From Rhodopseudomonas infernalis (lineage in GTDB: Bacteria > Pseudomonadota > Alphaproteobacteria > Rhizobiales > Xanthobacteraceae), in NCBI RefSeq assembly GCF_022271405.1, contig NZ_JAJNAL010000009.1, positions 1 through 64,000 of the forward strand: a stretch of 64,000 bases of DNA, written 5' to 3'. Both the position numbers and the translations under genes were made by a program. Below, in pieces: positions 14,067-22,450 of the stretch; within the stretch, counting starts at the first letter, position 1; the number at the start of each line of letters is the position of its first letter. The notes under the pieces were generated by a model that searched no databases, was not told where the DNA came from, and worked only from the letters and a program-made list of their open reading frames with translations.

Positions 14067-14300
14067 GGTCCCCTCCCTGATTTTTTCTCAGGCTAGCGCA
14101 AGGGCCGGGGCCCAGCCATGGAGCGATGCTGTGACCATTTGCCACCACGCGGGTGTGCATCCCGCAGCGCAGGCGCGCGTTGGCGATTAGGGCACATCTC
14201 AATCTTCGGAGCTGATCTTGCACGTCTCCCCGGCGCGACAGCGTCATGCTTTTGCAGCGCTCGCCGCGCGGATGCCGGCGGATCGCCGGTGCGCGCCGCG
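14067..14300. promoter_or_regulatory. Divergent region between Bug gene and oxidase cluster
   Basis: These 234 bases separate the leftward binding protein from the rightward CtaG-like gene. Open frames cross it, but none fits a protein family. It should hold the promoters for both directions. I see no clear consensus or dyad in it. Confidence 0.35.
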
Positions 14301-15065
14301 ATGATCGTGCCGTATTGCGGCGCGGCGCCGTTGCCGGCCGAGTGGCTGGGCCGCTGGAATCTCGATCCGGTGCTGATCGTCGCGATCGTGGGCGCCGCTG
14401 CGCTGCATCTCGGCGCGCTGATGCGCGAGCGTATCAGCGACGGGCGCAATCCCAGGCTGATATTGGCCGGTGCTGCCTGGACGCTGATGGCGCTGCTGTT
14501 CGTGTCGCCGCTATGCGCGCTGACGTCGGCGCTGTTTTCCGCGCGGGTCGCGCATCATGTCGTGCTTGTCGCCGGCGTCGCGCCGCTGCTCATTCTGTCA
14601 CTGCCGAGGCGTCTGGCGGCGTTGCGGATGCCCGGCCTTGCCGGCACCGCGGCGTTCCTGCTGCACATGGTGCTGCTGTGGCTGTGGCATGCGCCTGCGC
14701 CCTATGCGGCCGCGCTCGCCGACACGCGGATGTTCTGGGTGATGGAGCTGGGCCTGCTCGGCAGCGCGCTGCTGCTGTGGCTGGCGGTGCTGGCGCCGGC
14801 GGTGCGGCTCGGCGGCGCGCTGGCGCTGCTGCTCGGCTCGGTGGTGCAGATGGGGCTGCTCGGCGCCGTCATCACCTTCGCGCGGACGCCGCTCTACGAC
14901 GCGCATCTCGGCGTCACCACGCCGTGGGGCCTCGGCGCGTTGCAGGATCAGCAGCTCGCAGGACTGATCATGTGGGTGCCGGCCGCAATCCCCTATCTGA
15001 TCGCGGCCCTGATGCTGCTGGTCAGCCGGTTCGGCGCGGGCGTCGCCGACGAACCCGCGCGATGA
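14301..15065 (+). CDS. ctaG: Cytochrome c oxidase assembly protein, caa3-type CtaG family
   Basis: A 254-residue polytopic membrane protein of the caa3_CtaG family (distinct from the Cox11-type CtaG), thought to help copper-centre assembly of the oxidase. The ATG at 14301 gives the family N-terminus (YCGAAPLPAEWLGRWNLDP). Later marks are MVLLWLWHAPAPYAAAL, FVSPLCALTSALFSARVAHH, and a C-terminal TPWGLGALQDQQLAGLIMWV. About seven hydrophobic segments are visible. It overlaps the next gene by 4 bases (ATGA) and begins the oxidase cluster. Confidence 0.85.
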   Translation: MIVPYCGAAPLPAEWLGRWNLDPVLIVAIVGAAALHLGALMRERISDGRNPRLILAGAAWTLMALLFVSPLCALTSALFSARVAHHVVLVAGVAPLLILSLPRRLAALRMPGLAGTAAFLLHMVLLWLWHAPAPYAAALADTRMFWVMELGLLGSALLLWLAVLAPAVRLGGALALLLGSVVQMGLLGAVITFARTPLYDAHLGVTTPWGLGALQDQQLAGLIMWVPAAIPYLIAALMLLVSRFGAGVADEPAR

Positions 15066-15556
15066 TCGCGTGGCTGAAAGCGATCCATATCACCGCGCTG
15101 ATCGTGTGGTGCGGCGGTCTGCTGGTGTTGCCGGGCCTGTTCGTCCGGCGCAGCCGGCTGTCCCGCCGCGAGGCGGTCGAACTGCATCGCTACATCCGGA
15201 CCTTGTTCATCAGCCTGGTGTCGCCGGCGGGATTCGTGGCGGTAGTGGCCGGCACGGTGTTGTTGTTTCTGCGCGAGGTCTTCACCACCTGGATGATGCT
15301 GAAGCTGGTCGTGGTTGGTCTGTTGGTGATCATTCACATGCGGGCCGGCTACGTGATCCTGAGCCTGTTCGAACCGGAAGGGCACTACGCGCCGTGGCGG
15401 CGCTGGACAATGACCGTGGTCACGATCGCGGTGATCGGCGTGATCCTGGTGCTGATCCTGGACAAGCCCGCGATCGAATACGCCGCGGTCCCGAAATGGA
15501 TGCGCGAGCCCGGCGGGCTTCAATCCTTGCTCGACACCATCAGGCCGATGCCGTGA
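15062..15556 (+). CDS. CopD/HemJ-like membrane protein of the oxidase cluster
   Basis: A 164-residue protein with four hydrophobic segments. The N-terminal WLKAIHITALIVWCGGLLVL contains the membrane His and Trp-Cys pattern seen in CopD/HemJ-like proteins, which bind heme or copper. The region HMRAGYVILSLFEPEGHYAP is a conserved-looking loop. The ATG at 15062 overlaps the ctaG stop, so longer upstream frames are rejected. Its 3' end overlaps the convergent DUF2231 gene by 37 bases. A role in copper or heme supply to the oxidase is inferred from position only. Confidence 0.7.
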   Translation: MIAWLKAIHITALIVWCGGLLVLPGLFVRRSRLSRREAVELHRYIRTLFISLVSPAGFVAVVAGTVLLFLREVFTTWMMLKLVVVGLLVIIHMRAGYVILSLFEPEGHYAPWRRWTMTVVTIAVIGVILVLILDKPAIEYAAVPKWMREPGGLQSLLDTIRPMP

Positions 15557-16002
15557 TCGAACACCAGCTTGCCGCCATGCCATCCGGCGATTCCGACGAA
15601 CACCGAGCCGAGCGCCGACATCATCAGGCCCACCGGCAGGATGTTCTCGTGATCGACCAAGCGCAGCCCCCAATTAGCGCCGGCGATCGACACCAGCATG
15701 ACGCCGGCGAGCGCATGCATCCAGCTCGCCGTCCGCTTGCGGATGCCCTCGACCAGCAGCAGCTCGGCGGTGCCGGCGAGGCTGGCGGCGACGCCGAGCC
15801 AGAATGCGAAGCCGCTCGCCCACAGTCCGGCGCGCGCCCAGAACGGATCTGCGCCCCACCAGTAGAAAATGTCGCAGCCGAGTGTGGCGATCACCAGCGC
15901 GATCGGGAACGACACCATCATCGCATGGATCGGATGACCGGCCAGCGCCACGATGGAGTTGGTATCGTAAGCACGAATTTCTTCGACAACCGTCTTCGGC
16001 AT
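15520..16002 (-). CDS. DUF2231 membrane protein
   Basis: A 160-residue protein with four predicted membrane helices. It carries the DUF2231 opening GHPIHAMMVSFPIALVIATL, with histidines at the membrane face, and a later HALAGVMLVSIAGANWGLRL. The family has no settled function. It faces the oxidase operon, converging with the CopD-like gene (37-base overlap of 3' ends), and starts 21 bases from the subunit II gene, so it shares a divergent promoter gap with coxB. This placement inside an otherwise co-directional oxidase cluster is unusual. Confidence 0.82.
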   Translation of the reverse strand: MPKTVVEEIRAYDTNSIVALAGHPIHAMMVSFPIALVIATLGCDIFYWWGADPFWARAGLWASGFAFWLGVAASLAGTAELLLVEGIRKRTASWMHALAGVMLVSIAGANWGLRLVDHENILPVGLMMSALGSVFVGIAGWHGGKLVFDHGIGLMVSSKD

Positions 16003-16023
16003 TGTGCACCTCGCGTCAGCTTA

Positions 16024-16728
16024 ATGCGCCGGCGCCGCGCTTGGTTCAAAGCGGGCGTCATCGGCAGCGGCGGCGTGTTGCTCGCCGGCTGCTCCGGCCC
16101 GCTGTCGACCGTGGATCCGGCGGGACCTTCGGCGGAGGCGATCGCGTCGCTGTGGTGGGCGATGCTGATCGGCTCCACGCTGCTGTTCTGTCTGGTGATG
16201 GCTCTGCTGCTGTGGGTGTTTATCAAGCCCGCGTCAGATCGCAGCGCCTCGCCAAAACTGTGGCTGGTCGGCGGCGGGCTGGTGCTGCCGGCGCTGGTGC
16301 TGACGCCGCTGCTTGGTTACGGCTTCTACATCGGTGAGAAATTACTCGCGCATCCGCGCGCCGATGCGCCGGTGCGGATCGACGTGCTGGTGCGGCAATG
16401 GGAGTGGACGTTCCGCTATCCCGGGCCAGACGGCACGCGCGTGTCCGTCAACGAGCTGCATCTGCCGGTCGGCTGCGCCGCCGATCTGCACGTCACCACC
16501 GCCGACGTCATTCACGGCTTCTGGATTCCGCGGCTCGGCGGCAAGGTCGATGCGATCCCGGGTCACACCAATGTGGTGCGGCTGTCGGCGTCGCAGCCCG
16601 GCCGCTATCGCGGCGTCTGCGCCGAATTCTGCGGCACCGGCCACACCGTGATGGATTTCGCCGTGCAGGCGCACGACGGCGACGCGTTCGAAGCCCGGCT
16701 CGATAAGCTCCCGAAGGATACACCATGA
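16024..16728 (+). CDS. coxB: Cytochrome c oxidase subunit II (lipoprotein)
   Basis: Subunit II carries the CuA centre that accepts electrons from cytochrome c. The ATG at 16024 gives a lipoprotein signal (LLAGC, lipid-modified Cys 23), then two membrane helices (about 40-67 and 80-105). CuA ligands are all present: His 164 in DVIHGFWIP, then Cys 199, Glu 201, Cys 203, His 207 and Met 210 in VCAEFCGTGHTVM. No fused cytochrome c domain is present; the protein ends at residue 234. A longer frame upstream to 15070 runs antisense to the DUF2231 gene and is rejected. It overlaps the subunit I gene by 4 bases. Confidence 0.92.
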   Translation: MRRRRAWFKAGVIGSGGVLLAGCSGPLSTVDPAGPSAEAIASLWWAMLIGSTLLFCLVMALLLWVFIKPASDRSASPKLWLVGGGLVLPALVLTPLLGYGFYIGEKLLAHPRADAPVRIDVLVRQWEWTFRYPGPDGTRVSVNELHLPVGCAADLHVTTADVIHGFWIPRLGGKVDAIPGHTNVVRLSASQPGRYRGVCAEFCGTGHTVMDFAVQAHDGDAFEARLDKLPKDTP

Positions 16729-19259
16729 GCGCGCCGCGCGACGAGACGCCGGCGGCCGCGACCAGCGCGGTCCGCCTGCACAAGCAGCTCGAGCGGATCT
16801 GGGGCACGGCGCCGGGCTGGGGCCGGCTCTCCGCCGTCAACCACACCATCGTCGGTCGCCGCTTCATCCTCACCGCCTTCGTGTTCTTCGGCGTCGGCGG
16901 CGTGCTGGCGATGCTGATCCGCGCCCAGCTCGCCACGCCGCGCAGCGCTTTTCTCGAGCCCGGACTCTACAATCAGATCTTCACCATGCACGGCACGGTG
17001 ATGATGTTCCTGTTCGCCATCCCGATGTTCGAAGGGCTGGCGATCTATCTGTTGCCCAAGATGCTCGGCGCGCGCGACATGGCGTTTCCGCGGCTCGGCG
17101 CCTACGGCTATTGGTGCTATCTGTTCGGCGGCTCGATCCTGCTGATCGCGATGGCGCTCGGCCTGGCGCCGGACGGCGGCTGGTTCATGTACACGCCGCT
17201 GAGTTCGAAGGCCTACACGCCCGGCATCAATGCCGACATCTGGCTGATCGGCATCACCTTCGTGGAGATCTCGGCGCTGTCGGCGGCGGTCGAGATCATC
17301 GCGACGATTCTCAAGATGCGGGCGCCCGGCATGTCGCTCGACAAGATGCCGCTGCTGGCGTGGTATCTGCTGGTCACCGCCTTCATGATGCTGTTCGGCT
17401 TTCCGCCGCTGATCCTCGGCTCGGTGCTGCTCGAGGTCGAGCGCGCCTTCGACCTGCCGTTCTTCGACGCGGCGCGCGGCGGCGACTCGCTGCTGTGGCA
17501 GCATCTGTTCTGGCTGTTCGGCCACCCGGAGGTCTACATCATCTTCCTGCCGGCAGCCGGCATGGTGTCGACCATCCTGCCGGTGCTCGCGCGGCGCGAG
17601 ATCATCGGCTACGTCTGGATCGTGGTGAGTATCGTGGCGCTCGCCTTCCTCAGCTTCGGGCTGTGGGTGCACCACATGTTCACGGTCGGCATTCCGCATC
17701 TGGCGCTGGCGTTCTTCTCGGCGGCCTCGACCGCGGTGGCGGTGCCGACCGCGGTGCAGATCTTCGCCTGGATCGGCACGCTCGCGGCCGGACGGCCGCA
17801 ACTCAAGCTGCCGATGCTGTATCTGCTCGGGTTCTTCTCGGTGTTCGTGATCGGCGGGCTCACCGGCGTGATGCTGGCGATCGTGCCGTTCAACTGGCAG
17901 GTCCACGATACGCACTTCGTCGTCGCACATCTGCACTACGTGCTGGTCGGCGGCTTCATCTTCCCGATGCTGGCGGCCGCGTATTACTGGCTGCCGCACT
18001 TCACCGGCCGCGTGCCGCGCCACAGCCTCGGCGTGCCGGCATTCTGGCTGATCATCATCGGCTTCAATCTCACCTTCCTGATCATGCACTGGACCGGCCT
18101 GCTCGGCATGCCGCGCCGGATCAGCACCTACGGCGCCGACACCGGATGGGAATGGCTCAATCTGGTGTCGTCGATCGGAGGCTTCGTGATGGCGATCGGC
18201 TTCGCGCTGTTCACCGTCGACGTGGTCATGCACTGGCTGCACGGCAAGCGCGGCCCGCGCAATCCGTGGGGCGCCGGCACGCTGGAATGGGCGATGGCGA
18301 CGCCGCCGCCGAGCTACAATTTCGGCGCGCTGCCCGACGTCACGACCCGGTCGCCGCTCGCGGATCAGCCGGGGCTCGCCAACCGGCTGGCGCGCGGCGA
18401 TGGTTACCTCGGCTTCGTCCGCAATGGCTGGCTGGAGACGCTCGGTGTCGACATGATGTCGGGCCGGCTCGAGCAGATCGTGCGGCTGCCGTCGCCGACG
18501 ATGCTGCCGCTGTTCACCGCGTTGGTGACGGGCGTGTTCTTCGCCGCGGTGCTGTTCAAGCTGTATTGGCTCGCGGTGCTGGCGCTGCCGGCGATCGTGG
18601 CGATGTTCCTGGCCTGGACGCCGGTGTCGGGCGAGCGCAGCGACCGGGGCGAACTGCCGATCGGCAACGGCGCGCAGGCGATACTGCACAGCGAGGCCGC
18701 GTCGCCGCCGTCGCTGTGGGCGATGGGATTGACGCTGGCGGCGGATGCCACCGCCTATGCGTCGCTGGCCTTCGGGCTGCTGTTTCTGTGGGTGGTGGCG
18801 CCGAACTGGCCGCCGCTGGCGCTGATCGCGTGGGCGCCGGTGGGCGTGGCACTGATCGCAGGCGGCGCGCTCCTCGCGGCGCTCGCCAGCGTCGCAGCGA
18901 CTGCGCGGCGCGTTATCGGCAGCGGACCGCGGCGCGAGGGCGCGCTGGCGCTGGCGGTGATCGGGCAGGGCGCGGCGCTGGCCGGGCTCGCGCTCGTCGT
19001 CGCCGCGGTGCCGGACCCGACGCGACACGCCTACGCGGCCGCCACGCTGGTGATCCTGCTGTATGTCGGGCTGCACCTCGCGGTCGGCGCGGTGTTGGCT
19101 GGGTTCGGGATCTGGCGCAGCCGCACCGGCTATGTCTCGGCGCGGCGCAGCGTCGATCTGCGGATCGGCGCGCTGTGGAGCGCCTTCACGGCTGCGCTGG
19201 CGGTCGGCACGCTGCTGATCGTGTACGGCCTGCCGCTGGTGATGGGAGCGCCTCGATGA
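16725..19259 (+). CDS. Cytochrome c oxidase subunit I+III fusion with altered proton channels
   Basis: An 844-residue fusion of the heme-copper catalytic subunit (about 1-560) with a subunit III-like helical domain (about 590-844). Metal ligands are intact: His 89 (heme a), His 267 with Tyr 271 in GHPEVY (CuB, cross-linked Tyr), His 316/317 (CuB), and His 402/404 (hemes a3 and a). Glu 269 and Asp 118 of the D-channel remain. The usual Asn residues of that channel are Ile 107, Gly 125 and Ala 126. The K-channel Lys (VPTGIK in standard enzymes) is Gln 345 in VPTAVQIFAW. Proton pumping may therefore differ from classic aa3 oxidases. It overlaps coxB and the next gene by 4 bases. Confidence 0.9.
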   Translation: MSAPRDETPAAATSAVRLHKQLERIWGTAPGWGRLSAVNHTIVGRRFILTAFVFFGVGGVLAMLIRAQLATPRSAFLEPGLYNQIFTMHGTVMMFLFAIPMFEGLAIYLLPKMLGARDMAFPRLGAYGYWCYLFGGSILLIAMALGLAPDGGWFMYTPLSSKAYTPGINADIWLIGITFVEISALSAAVEIIATILKMRAPGMSLDKMPLLAWYLLVTAFMMLFGFPPLILGSVLLEVERAFDLPFFDAARGGDSLLWQHLFWLFGHPEVYIIFLPAAGMVSTILPVLARREIIGYVWIVVSIVALAFLSFGLWVHHMFTVGIPHLALAFFSAASTAVAVPTAVQIFAWIGTLAAGRPQLKLPMLYLLGFFSVFVIGGLTGVMLAIVPFNWQVHDTHFVVAHLHYVLVGGFIFPMLAAAYYWLPHFTGRVPRHSLGVPAFWLIIIGFNLTFLIMHWTGLLGMPRRISTYGADTGWEWLNLVSSIGGFVMAIGFALFTVDVVMHWLHGKRGPRNPWGAGTLEWAMATPPPSYNFGALPDVTTRSPLADQPGLANRLARGDGYLGFVRNGWLETLGVDMMSGRLEQIVRLPSPTMLPLFTALVTGVFFAAVLFKLYWLAVLALPAIVAMFLAWTPVSGERSDRGELPIGNGAQAILHSEAASPPSLWAMGLTLAADATAYASLAFGLLFLWVVAPNWPPLALIAWAPVGVALIAGGALLAALASVAATARRVIGSGPRREGALALAVIGQGAALAGLALVVAAVPDPTRHAYAAATLVILLYVGLHLAVGAVLAGFGIWRSRTGYVSARRSVDLRIGALWSAFTAALAVGTLLIVYGLPLVMGAPR

Positions 19260-19606
19260 CCCGCGCGCCGACGCGTCCGGCATCGCTGCTGCTGATCAGC
19301 GCCGGCTTCATCGTCTGGGCCCTGGCGTTCACGCTGCTGTATGGCGGCCTGTCGGTTGGCTGCGCATTCGGCTGGCAGAGCGAGATGATCGGCGGCAACA
19401 GCTTGCTACGCGTCGTGCTGCTGGCGATCTGGGGACTGCATATTGTCGCGCTGATCGGCTTGCTGATTTATTGCGTCCGCCTGCCGCGCTCCGACGAGAC
19501 GACGCCAGCTTTCACTCGCAAGGCCGCGATCGGCACGACCGTGACGGCGCTAGTCGCCACGGTATGGACCGGCCTGCCGATCCCGGCGCTGTCGCAGTGT
19601 GTGTGA
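19256..19606 (+). CDS. Small membrane protein of the oxidase cluster
   Basis: A 116-residue protein with three hydrophobic segments (about 8-32, 45-70, 87-108) and a cysteine near each end (Cys 36 and Cys 115). The ATG at 19256 overlaps the subunit I+III stop in ATGA, so it is part of the oxidase operon. I do not recognise the family. It may be an accessory or subunit-IV-like protein, but this is inferred from position and topology alone. Confidence 0.65.
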   Translation: MTRAPTRPASLLLISAGFIVWALAFTLLYGGLSVGCAFGWQSEMIGGNSLLRVVLLAIWGLHIVALIGLLIYCVRLPRSDETTPAFTRKAAIGTTVTALVATVWTGLPIPALSQCV

Positions 19607-19765: not shown

Positions 19766-20152
19766 CTAAATATCCGCGCCCTGATCCGCCGTACTGCGCG
19801 GCTGCTTGAGTGTGGCCCAGCCTTCGCCGCCGGGCGGCTGCGGCAATTCTTCCTGCACGGCGCGGTTGCGCAGGATGTGGGACTTCGAGATCATGTGGGC
19901 GGTGATCGGCGCGGTCAGGAACAGAAACAGCGTGATCAGCAGTTCGTGCAGCGATACGTCGCCGCGGATCAGCGCGAAATACAGCAGCGAGGCGATCAGC
20001 AGCGAGCCGATGCCGAGCGTGGTGGATTTGGTCGGCGCATGCAGCCGCTGCATGATGTCCGGCAGCTTCACCAGCCCGAACGAGCCGACGAACAAAAACA
20101 GCGCGCCGATCAGGATCAGCGCCGAGACCAGGACTTCGCTGAGCCACGCCAT
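19766..20152 (-). CDS. mnhG: Mrp/Pha antiporter subunit G
   Basis: A 128-residue, three-helix protein. The start region MAWLSEVLVSALILIGALFL and the conserved GLVKLPDIMQRLHAPTKSTT segment define MnhG/PhaG. A hydrophilic tail follows the last helix. The start is the ATG at 20152; the open frame extends upstream through mnhF in another frame and is not used. It is the last gene of the leftward antiporter operon, 5 bases after mnhF. Confidence 0.9.
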   Translation of the reverse strand: MAWLSEVLVSALILIGALFLFVGSFGLVKLPDIMQRLHAPTKSTTLGIGSLLIASLLYFALIRGDVSLHELLITLFLFLTAPITAHMISKSHILRNRAVQEELPQPPGGEGWATLKQPRSTADQGADI

Positions 20153-20157
20153 CGCGG

Positions 20158-20427
20158 TTACTCGATTACGTTGCCGCGCAGCAGATATTTGCAGAACGCG
20201 ACGGTGGACAGGAAGCCGACCGCGACGAACAACAGCGCGATCTCGAAATACAGACTGGTGCCGTACCAGATGCCGATCACCACCACGAGGCCGATGGTGT
20301 TGGTGACCAGCGTTTCCAGCGTCAGGATGCGGTCGAGCACGTCCGGGCCCTTGGCGAGCCGATACAGGTTCATCAGCGCCGCGACGGCAATGATGGAGAC
20401 GGCGATCAGGCACGCGGTTGCGATCAT
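20158..20427 (-). CDS. mnhF: Mrp/Pha antiporter subunit F
   Basis: An 89-residue subunit with three membrane helices and the MnhF hallmark LYRLAKGPDVLDRILTLETL. Its ATG at 20427 overlaps the mnhE stop by 4 bases. With the other subunits it forms the hetero-oligomeric monovalent cation/proton antiporter. Confidence 0.9.
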   Translation of the reverse strand: MIATACLIAVSIIAVAALMNLYRLAKGPDVLDRILTLETLVTNTIGLVVVIGIWYGTSLYFEIALLFVAVGFLSTVAFCKYLLRGNVIE

Positions 20428-20912
20428 CCAAAGATCTCCTTCAGCCGGCGTTCGTAGCGGGTCTTGATCTGCGCCACCGTGTCGTCCGGATCGCTGGTGT
20501 GCAGGCAATGCACCAGGATGGCGCTGCCATCGGCGGCGAGATCGGCGCTGACGGTGCCGGGCGTCATGGTGATGGTGCCGGCCAAGAGCGCGATGGCCTC
20601 GGGCGACGTCAGCTCGATCGGCACCACGACGTAGCGGGTCTGCAACCGCGACGCCCGCCAGAACAGCACCCAGATGGCGACCTGGATGTTGGACACCACG
20701 ATGTCCCAGCCGACGATCGCGAAATATTCGAGGATCTTGAGCGGCCGGCGGATCCTCGGGCGCTCCGGCCAATACGGGCTGGTGAACAGCGGGATCGCGA
20801 CGCCGAGTATCAGGCCGAACAGCACGGTGCCGAGCGAGACCGAATTGATCAGCGCCACCCAGACGGCGGCGATCAGCAGCGTGAACATCGGATGCGGCAG
20901 CAGGCGCGTCAT
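20424..20912 (-). CDS. mnhE: Mrp/Pha antiporter subunit E
   Basis: A 162-residue MnhE/PhaE subunit. Two N-terminal membrane helices (MFTLLIAAVWVALINSVSLG) are followed by a cytoplasmic domain with the family marks ALLAGTITMTPGTVSADL and a C-terminal DDTVAQIKTRYERRLKEIFG. The start is the ATG at 20912, overlapping the mnhD stop by 4 bases; the much longer open frame upstream is a shadow of mnhD. Confidence 0.9.
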   Translation of the reverse strand: MTRLLPHPMFTLLIAAVWVALINSVSLGTVLFGLILGVAIPLFTSPYWPERPRIRRPLKILEYFAIVGWDIVVSNIQVAIWVLFWRASRLQTRYVVVPIELTSPEAIALLAGTITMTPGTVSADLAADGSAILVHCLHTSDPDDTVAQIKTRYERRLKEIFG

Positions 20913-22450
20913 CGGGCGCCTCCTTGCGTCAGGGCGGTCCACGACGCCGGGTCGACGGCGCGTACATAGGCGGTGACGTCGAGCGCCTGCCGCGCCGTCG
21001 CGGCGAGGTCGCGCGTCACCGGGCCGGCGAACAGCGCCAGCAGCACGGTGGCGCCGAGCAAAGCGGAGATCACGGTCGCCTGCAGCGCGATGCGCGGGGC
21101 TGGGGACGTCGTCGCTTCCGAAGGCTTCGGGGCGACCTTCCAGAACAGTGTGCTGCCGGCGCGGGCGAAGCCGATGATCACGATCAGGCTGGTGCCCAGC
21201 ACCACGCACCAACTCGTCACCGCGAGAGGGCTGCGCCAGACGGCGTCGAGGATCAGCAGCTTGCCGAGGAAGCCGGACAGCGGCGGCATGCCGGTGATGG
21301 CGATCGCCGCGGCGAAGAACAGGCCGGCAAGAAGATTCGCGTGCGGCAGCGGCGGCGCGGGCACCAGCCGGTCGGCGGGGCCGGCGCGCTGCGCGATCAC
21401 CAGATCGGCGAGCAGGAACAGCGCCGCGCCGCTCAGCGTCGAGTGCAGCAGGTAGTACAGGCCCGCGGCGAGACCGGCCTGATCGAACAGCCCGAGCGCC
21501 AGCAGCAGCGAGCCCATCGACCACACGATCGCAAAGCACACCAGTCCGGTCAGCGACGCGCTCGCCAGCACGCCGACCGCGCCGAGCAGCAGCGTTGCCA
21601 GCGCCGCCGGCACCACCCAGGGCATGGCGATGTCGGCGACGCTGCCGGCGTTCGCGCCGAACACGATCGTGTAGACCCGGACGATCGAATAGGCGCCGAC
21701 CTTGGTCATCATCATGAACAGCGCCGCGACCGGCGCGGCTGCTGCCGCGTAGGCCGAGGGCAGCCACCATTGCAGCGGCACCAAAGCGGCCTTCAGGGCG
21801 AACACCAGCAGCAGCAGCAGCGCGCCGACGCGGAGCAGCGCCTCATCGCCGGGCGCGATCTGCGCGACCTTGCCGGCGAGGTCCGCCATGTTGAGCGTGC
21901 CGGTGACGGCGTAGATCAGGCCGACCGCGAACAGAAACAGCGTCGAGCCGATCAGATTGATCGCCACGTAGTTGAAGCCGGCGCGCAGCCGCCGCGGTCC
22001 GCCGCCGTGCAGCATCAGCCCGTAGGAGGCGATCAGCATCACCTCGAAGAACACGAACAGATTGAACACGTCGCCGGTGAGGAACGCGCCGTTCAGCCCC
22101 ATCAGCTGAAACTGGAACAGCGGATGGAAATGCCGTCCCGCTTTGTCCCAGCCCGCCATCGCGTAGATCAGCACCAGGGCCGCAAGCAGCGCGGTGAGCA
22201 GCAGCATGGTGGCCGCGAGCCGATCGAGCACCAGCACGATGCCGAACGGCGCGCGCCAGTCCCCGAGCAGATAAGGCTGCGGCGCGCTATCCGCCGCGGA
22301 GGCGTAGAGCCAGATCGCGAGGGCCAGCAGCGCCAGCGTCGCGGCGCTGGAGACGATGCGCTGTGCGACAAGGTCGTGGCGCAGCGCCAGCACCAGGAAC
22401 GCCGCGACGGCGGCGGGCAGCACGATCGGGGCGACGATCAGATCCGTCAT
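20909..22450 (-). CDS. mnhD: Mrp/Pha antiporter subunit D
   Basis: A 513-residue polytopic subunit homologous to the NuoN/NuoM proton-translocating subunits of complex I. About 14 helices are visible. The segment FQLMGLNGAFLTGDVFNLFV with FFEVMLIASY contains the conserved membrane Glu of the family, and ALKAALVPLQWWLPSAYAAA holds the conserved Lys. The ATG at 22450 gives the right N-terminus (MTDLIVAPIVLPAAVAAFLV) and overlaps mnhC by 4 bases. Confidence 0.93.
   Translation of the reverse strand: MTDLIVAPIVLPAAVAAFLVLALRHDLVAQRIVSSAATLALLALAIWLYASAADSAPQPYLLGDWRAPFGIVLVLDRLAATMLLLTALLAALVLIYAMAGWDKAGRHFHPLFQFQLMGLNGAFLTGDVFNLFVFFEVMLIASYGLMLHGGGPRRLRAGFNYVAINLIGSTLFLFAVGLIYAVTGTLNMADLAGKVAQIAPGDEALLRVGALLLLLVFALKAALVPLQWWLPSAYAAAAAPVAALFMMMTKVGAYSIVRVYTIVFGANAGSVADIAMPWVVPAALATLLLGAVGVLASASLTGLVCFAIVWSMGSLLLALGLFDQAGLAAGLYYLLHSTLSGAALFLLADLVIAQRAGPADRLVPAPPLPHANLLAGLFFAAAIAITGMPPLSGFLGKLLILDAVWRSPLAVTSWCVVLGTSLIVIIGFARAGSTLFWKVAPKPSEATTSPAPRIALQATVISALLGATVLLALFAGPVTRDLAATARQALDVTAYVRAVDPASWTALTQGGAR

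Follow-up and report, generated by a model that had tools for sequence, protein, structure and literature searches.

An A-type heme-copper oxidase clade of Proteobacteria without the K-channel lysine and with three conserved glutamates in the D-channel helices

How could an A-type heme-copper oxidase take up protons if the lysine of its K channel and the asparagines of its D channel are both missing? The question is raised by a gene in the first 64,000 nucleotides of contig NZ_JAJNAL010000009.1 of Rhodopseudomonas infernalis (the whole of this stretch is called the window below), which encodes an 844-residue fusion of oxidase subunits I and III. Why A-type oxidases need two proton pathways and what the asparagine gate does are long-standing questions that have been approached mostly with point mutants. 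The clade to which this protein belongs approximates a natural double mutant, K-less and substituted at N139, that is kept under selection in many bacteria and has gained three acids; it may serve as a natural test of two points, whether an oxidase can do without the K pathway and whether pumping needs the asparagine gate. We put at roughly one in two the probability that, in this large proteobacterial clade, the K pathway has been dismantled, substrate protons are carried by a D-type relay of glutamates, and pumping is weak or lost.

In the 844-residue protein an A-family COX1 is joined to a divergent COX3. The sequence scores 715.7 bits against NCBIfam TIGR02891 (CtaD; curated cut-off 670.75) and gives an E-value of 1.2e-147 with Pfam COX1. 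The COX3 part yielded no match in a single-sequence Pfam search of the protein because the C-terminal sequence is too diverged; a profile of residues 561–844 matched the C-terminus of the Thermus caa3 I+III protein (2yev_A, E 1.1e-4) and, more weakly, six chains of subunit III from other oxidases (E 0.0045–0.028), such as that of Rhodobacter sphaeroides (Rs; 1m56_C, E 0.005). An AlphaFold model based on an alignment of 28 clade members has a mean predicted local distance difference test score (pLDDT) of 82.9, with values below 50 at 152–166, 264–267, 315–323, 383–396 and 464–470, and its top PDB match by Foldseek is again 2yev_A (827 columns, template modelling scores 0.79/0.85), so the I+III fusion recognized in the initial annotation is borne out by both profile and model. 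The six histidine ligands and the helix VI cross-linking tyrosine (Tyr-I) that define the A family are present, as had also been claimed: H89, H267, H316, H317, H402, H404 and Y271 are identical across 28 clade sequences, together with D118, E103, E181 and Q345. The pair R464-R465, which we take to act at the heme propionates, is likewise unchanged in 28 of 28. The A1 motif XGHPEVY is found as FGHPEVY. Ratios of nonsynonymous to synonymous substitution rates (dN/dS) of 0.13–0.23 in three pairs indicate that the COX1 part is under purifying selection, and these ratios and the homologues rule out a pseudogene or a sequencing error.

The COX1 sequences were compared in an alignment of 199 rows, made up of the query, 118 rows of group A (>780 bits), 38 of group B (500–780 bits), 21 of group C (380–432 bits; canonical CtaD plus the broken-frame L163), six of group D (quinol-oxidase-like) and 15 of group E (divergent). 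The canonical set consists of the 26 rows of C and D (COX1/CyoB) with L163 left out; Bq denotes the 33 B rows with Gln at position 345 and Bx the five with Ala or Thr. Group A counts out of 119 include the query, to which COX1 identity is 64–96% in group A and 52–62% in Bq. Numbering was tied to Rs through L001, a canonical sequence of the same genome, and PDB 1m56_A, whose residues 102, 121, 132, 139, 140, 207, 286, 288 and 362 (H, N, D, N, N, N, E, Y and K) correspond to H89, I107, D118, G125, A126, E190, E269, Y271 and Q345 of the query.

Gln345 thus stands where the initial annotation placed it, at the position of K362, and is found throughout group A as well as in 33 of the 38 group B rows, the remaining five having Ala or Thr. 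A lysine hidden by misalignment was considered and rejected: residues 338–350, the VPTAVQIFAW region, align without gaps in all A, B, C and D rows (L163 left out). The sole Lys among the conserved polar residues specific to the clade is K112, near D118, in group A. Measured against the published A-family K channel of Lys354, Thr351, Ser291 and Tyr280 (Paracoccus numbers, Table 2 of PMC3084760), the 119 group A rows have Lys in none, Thr in 119, Ser in 116 with Thr in the other three, and Tyr in 119. The upper K channel is eroded in Bq, where T342 is replaced by Ala or Asn in 5/33 and S282 by Ala in 10/33. Ten of the 33 Bq rows (L107, L109, L110, L135–L141) combine Ala at the S299 position with a Glu in helix VIII, at 336, which may be a further replacement for the K channel.

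The entrance of the K channel is altered as well. In Rs we take its glutamate to be E101 of subunit II. At the channel mouth it is E62 in the bovine and Glu82 in the yeast enzyme (PMC10194837, PMC8361435). All 26 canonical rows (19 C, 6 D and L195) have this Glu in the subunit II gene adjoining COX1, against none of 117 A rows, one of which, the short and poorly aligned L103, has Asp; it is also missing from all 31 Bq rows with a residue at the position, one Bq row being gapped, and from 15/15 rows of group E.

Asp118 and Glu269 of the D channel align with D132 and E286 of 1m56_A, and Ile, Gly and Ala occupy the positions of N121, N139 and N140 (107, 125 and 126 of the query), all as initially described. 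The fourth D-channel asparagine, N207, had escaped that description and is also replaced, by Glu190. At the N139 position group A has Ser or Thr in 95/119 rows and Gly in 23, the query among these, alongside the missing Lys. The A1 D channel has been tabulated as eight residues, Asp124, Asn199, Asn113, Asn131, Tyr35, Ser134, Ser193 and Glu278 (PMC3084760, Table 2), of which group A keeps two, Asp124 and Glu278 (E105 D14 of 119). The other six are replaced: Asn199 by Glu or Asp, Asn113 by I/M/V/L/F, Asn131 by S/T/G/A, Tyr35 by F/M/L/I and Ser134 by Gly or Ala in 119/119, and Ser193 by Ala in 118/119. The losses of N207 and of Tyr35, Ser134 and Ser193 (Paracoccus numbering), the three new glutamates and the subunit II change are all additional to the initial annotation. 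By fold and ligands the protein is an A-family oxidase and, judged from its sequence by published channel fingerprints, it is not A1. NCBIfam labels it CtaD, as it does L115 of a 12-row branch discussed below; for this large clade, annotated automatically as CtaD, the A1 residue fingerprints do not hold.

A scan for positions that are polar and conserved in group A and not so in canonical rows returned 28, including Glu103, Glu181 and Glu190. Position 103 is Glu in 119/119 of group A and E31 Q2 in the 33 Bq rows, against V13 T8 I4 M1 in the 26 canonical rows; counts for the other two are in Table 1. The 152 Gln rows hold 149 different sequences; thinned to 80% identity they give 59 clusters, of which 57 retain Glu at position 103, 59 at 181 and 58 at 190. 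Helix IV, which holds Glu181 and Glu190, aligns without gaps and is anchored on the MRAPGM motif, and the alignment at Glu103 is gap-free against canonical rows of the gamma type and one residue out of step against those of the alpha type. Two more new glutamates, E237 and E239, of which E239 replaces a canonical Asp, lie close to the end of helix V and outside the route proposed below.

Table 1. Coordinates in the window of the oxidase genes and of the residues discussed
Feature	Position	Strand	Evidence or remark
CtaG (caa3-type assembly factor)	14118..15065	+	PF09678 1e-25
Small membrane protein, CopD/HemJ kind (UPF0093)	15062..15556	+	PF03653 4.6e-14; 'CopD family protein' at same place in L214, L215
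DUF2231 membrane protein within cluster	15520..16002	-	PF09990 2e-35; arrangement shared with L214, L215
Subunit II (ctaC/coxB), lipoprotein-like N-terminus	16024..16728	+	TIGR02866 161.5 bits, over cut-off
Val82 of subunit II at K-channel entrance Glu position	16267..16269	+	alignment of subunit II neighbours
Subunit I+III (COX1-COX3 fusion), 844 residues	16725..19259	+	ATG open reading frame; family, profile and Foldseek evidence
Glu103, new acid in helix II, one turn (i-4) from N121 position	17031..17033	+	conservation counts
Ile107 at N121 position	17043..17045	+	I/M/V/L/F in 119/119; N 26/26 canonical
Asp118, D-channel entry Asp (D132 of Rs)	17076..17078	+	D 118/118 group A homologues; D23 N10 E5 in 38 B rows
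Gly125-Ala126 at N139-N140 positions	17097..17102	+	S48 T47 G23 A1 and A113 S5 M1 of 119
Glu181, new acid in helix IV (G198 position of Rs)	17265..17267	+	E 119/119 and 33/33; G 26/26 canonical
Glu190 at N207 position, helix IV	17292..17294	+	E118 D1 of 119; E32 A1 of 33; N 26/26 canonical
Glu269 (E286) and cross-linking Tyr271 (Y288), motif GHPEVY	17529..17537	+	clade alignment; Glu269 Asp in 14/118 group A homologues; Tyr271 in 119/119 group A rows including query
Ser282, K-channel Ser (S299 of Rs), kept	17568..17570	+	S115 T3 of 118 group A homologues
Thr342, K-channel Thr (T359 of Rs), kept	17748..17750	+	T 118/118 group A homologues
Gln345 at K-channel lysine (K362 of Rs)	17757..17759	+	Q 119/119 group A; K 26/26 canonical
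COX3-like C-terminal domain	18405..19256	+	profile matches to COX3 chains; Foldseek match to caa3 I+III
Small hydrophobic protein, 116 residues, no family	19256..19606	+	4-base overlap with subunit I+III gene

A FastTree phylogeny, computed without L163 (198 rows) and rooted on group E, unites the Gln rows in a single clade (support 0.999), with Bx as its sister group (support 0.978); all five Bx rows have Trp at E286 and Ala or Thr at K362. Parsimony requires one change for Gln, three for E103, one for E181 and two for E190, a pattern that points to one origin each for Gln and the glutamate triad with a few later losses. Loss of the lysine seems to have preceded the triad, since the sister rows already have Ala or Thr at K362. 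These five sister genes (L157–L161) read HPWVY and keep N121, N139 and N207. Among 397 sampled Pseudomonadota genomes of completeness >=90%, the phylum that the sample covers, 43 carry the Gln-type gene, the source included, or about 1 in 9; this count was taken from the match table and checked on the loci, the copy in G246 has a broken frame, and a contig-edge piece in G428 that ends before residue 345 is additional to the 43. All 43 genomes contain a second match to the query (at most two were scored per genome), which also belongs to this clade in G316 and G508 and to the sister group in G457.

In the mechanism that we propose, the K pathway would have been dismantled at both ends, through loss of the subunit II entrance Glu and exchange of Lys for Gln, and the D pathway would have been rebuilt, with the Asn gate (N121, N139) and N207 given up and three carboxylates gained. 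Protons would enter at Asp118 and pass by Glu190, Glu103 and Glu181 to Glu269, which would supply the heme-copper site during the oxidative as well as the reductive half of the cycle. The order of the glutamates along the membrane is one that we presume from helix directions and register. Glu190 is at a known D-channel residue, and Glu181 adjoins S197 and is three residues from S201. Pumping is probably weak or absent, because the N139 position mostly holds Ser or Thr (Gly in the query), which uncouple model enzymes, and charge would still be separated as substrate protons are taken up from the inside. That the triad lines the path and conducts, and that pumping has been lost, we infer from the residue pattern. 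The initial annotation had suggested an oxidase class with a different or absent proton route; the class is a coherent one, and the evidence favours a different route over an absent one, because the subunit II entrance Glu is lost and three conserved Glu are found in the D-channel helices.

Laboratory mutants, whose bovine numbering in the source papers was converted through Table 2 of PMC12901375, provide a parallel. In model enzymes the K362M exchange prevents reduction of heme a3 (PMC12901375, PMC10194837), and N139D, N139T and N139S retain O2 reduction and lose pumping (PMC12901375). Loss of the lysine is linked with loss of the Asn gate by these mutants, because addition of N139D or N139T to a K-pathway mutant restores the Pr step that is missing in the single mutant (PMC12901375). 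The glutamate relay is further favoured by the ten rows in which D118 itself has been lost and the triad is mostly kept.

Several points weigh against it. The double-mutant passage speaks of the Pr step and not of steady-state turnover (PMC12901375), and we set our confidence slightly lower because it covers one step only. Glu103 and Glu181 were placed only by helix register, and on a simple helical wheel residue 181 faces towards the edge of the channel face. The polar upper residues of group A (T342, S282 and Y271) and its invariant Gln would agree with a modified K channel. At the N139 position the query has Gly rather than Ser or Thr, and a 12-row branch keeps Asn there. Finally, pumping by any member of the clade was not reported in the open-access literature searched. 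More tentatively, as a proposal slightly easier to doubt than to accept, the clade may constitute a separate proton-route class that has neither K pathway nor Asn gate, uses one D-type path of four to five carboxylates for every substrate proton, and has lost pumping or achieves it by a different gate.

The chief rival, which we regard as rather unlikely, is that a modified K channel works through the invariant Gln: Gln345, Thr342, Ser282 and Ser335 with waters would carry one or two protons of the reductive phase from a different entrance, and the D channel with its extra glutamates would serve the rest. It is Gln, and not any residue, that is fixed in 119/119 rows, together with T342 in 119/119 and S282 as 116 Ser and 3 Thr, and S332 and S335 occur in every group A row and in 0 and 2, respectively, of the 26 canonical rows; group E, by contrast, has V/F, F/Y/M and L/M at T359, S299 and K362. 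However, the side chain of Gln is not protonatable, none of the 148 rows with a residue at the subunit II entrance position has Glu there, and the erosion of T342 and S282 in Bq is accompanied by retention of E181 in 33/33. If the new glutamates instead form an ion or structural site, for example for Na+, the enzyme would translocate that ion or be gated by it. Three carboxylates in two neighbouring helices could resemble a cation site and Mrp/Pha-type antiporter genes adjoin in the window, but no antiporter gene lies within 5 kb in two annotated plasmid relatives (L214, L215), and E190 is at a classical D-channel position; this reading is very improbable.

It is also very improbable that the protein is no respiratory oxidase at all, being a degenerating paralogue, a nitric oxide reductase or a sensor. 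The source assembly (Rhodopseudomonas, 5.5 Mb, 87 contigs) does encode four more superfamily members beside this copy, namely a canonical aa3 subunit I (L001) and two longer COX1s (L002, L004), all three with Lys, and a fifth gene of the COX1 superfamily (L005), so that subunit I+III belongs to an extra oxidase. Against a non-oxidase role stand the purifying selection on the COX1 part and the invariance of the His ligands, Tyr271 and R464-R465 in 28/28, and HPEVY does not match the nitric oxide reductase motif H-X-Arom-X-E (PMC3084760).

The protein family itself is already known. A COX1-3 protein of Rhodopseudomonas palustris BisA53 (YP_782773) has been described with a 'COX operon type a' (PMC4013037). 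It shares genus and I+III fusion with the 844-residue protein, its COX3 part being residues 550–841, and the two are very probably one family. The fusion itself agrees with operon type a, to which the query cluster may belong. That paper covers the fusion, the operon and phospholipid sites, and the terms 'K-channel' and 'D-channel' are absent from its main text. Of the channels of this clade no account was found in the open-access literature searched, a scope that excluded supplements, preprints and most subscription papers.

Loss of the K channel as such is not new, as follows from the absence of the Lys in group E and from the several family A losses discussed on an archaeal tree (PMC8239418), a paper whose supplementary figure of K-channel variants might cover the present clade too. 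The 15 'YSHPAVY' COX1 rows of group E (L189–L194, L196–L204), for which an 'acidophile-type' label is suggested by the motif and PMC8239418, resemble the clade in lacking the K-channel Lys (Leu or Met) and the subunit II Glu; they differ in having bulky K-channel residues at T359 and S299, in keeping N121, N139 and N207, and in having no Glu triad. The A1-type aa3 oxidases of Paracoccus, Rhodobacter and mitochondria share the fold, ligands, Tyr, GHPEVY and D-channel entry Asp, whereas the clade is without their K-channel Lys and subunit II Glu, has 6/8 D-channel residues replaced and has three new Glu. The Thermus caa3 I+III protein (2yev), the top structural match, shares the fusion at 30% identity over the Foldseek alignment.

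One Bq branch of 12 rows (L115, L146–L153, L155, L156, L162; support 0.96) shares Gln345 and most of the triad with the rest of the clade and differs in having Asn at D118 in 10/12 and at N139 in 12/12. The ten Asn118 rows (L115, L146, L147, L149–L151, L153, L155, L156, L162) are also without the K-channel Lys and keep E181 in 10, E190 in nine and E103 in eight. A scan for a replacement entry acid gave branch-specific D10, D39 and E73, none of which could be tied to the channel mouth. Judged by length, its matches of ~630–660 residues possibly represent the CoxMNOP type (coxN) of Bradyrhizobium and Pseudomonas KF707 (PMC5492768). The subunit II of Bq has one heme c motif in 31/32 rows.

The subunit II of the query retains the CuA ligands C199, E201, C203, H207, M210 and H164, as expected of a cytochrome c rather than a quinol oxidase. 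Among the 117 subunit II rows of group A (query counted), 15 lack the first CuA cysteine, which is Ser in 13, Thr in one and Asp in one, and in 16 His is replaced by Tyr (L117, L083, L066, L041, L056 and others). These ligand losses suggest that quinol oxidases may have arisen inside the clade. At the subunit II position of the Sulfitobacter plasmid copy (L214:4366-5007) the gene is annotated 'cytochrome B', and Pfam sees COX2.

The oxidase cluster is compact (14118–19606), which, with the purifying selection, agrees with the earlier view of a well-formed protein in an intact operon. The genes for subunit II and subunit I+III overlap by four bases. On plasmids of Shinella (L215) and Sulfitobacter (L214) the gene order is the same, the subunit genes are likewise overlapped by four bases, and a hypothetical protein of 105–107 residues occupies the place after subunit I+III. 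These statements on neighbouring genes rest on Pfam searches of single genes and on the two annotated records, a neighbour-gene clustering having been discarded because of shadow open reading frames in GC-rich DNA. A copy in R. palustris 2.1.18 is 93% identical in protein sequence, and a near full-length match was present in 6/11 same-genus genomes listed, the source included. Directly downstream in the window, on the minus strand at 19766–21767, are subunits G, F and E of a Mrp/Pha-type cation/proton antiporter. In Parapusillimonas granuli a molybdopterin oxidoreductase gene (L062:1836-4202, minus strand) adjoins the oxidase cluster.

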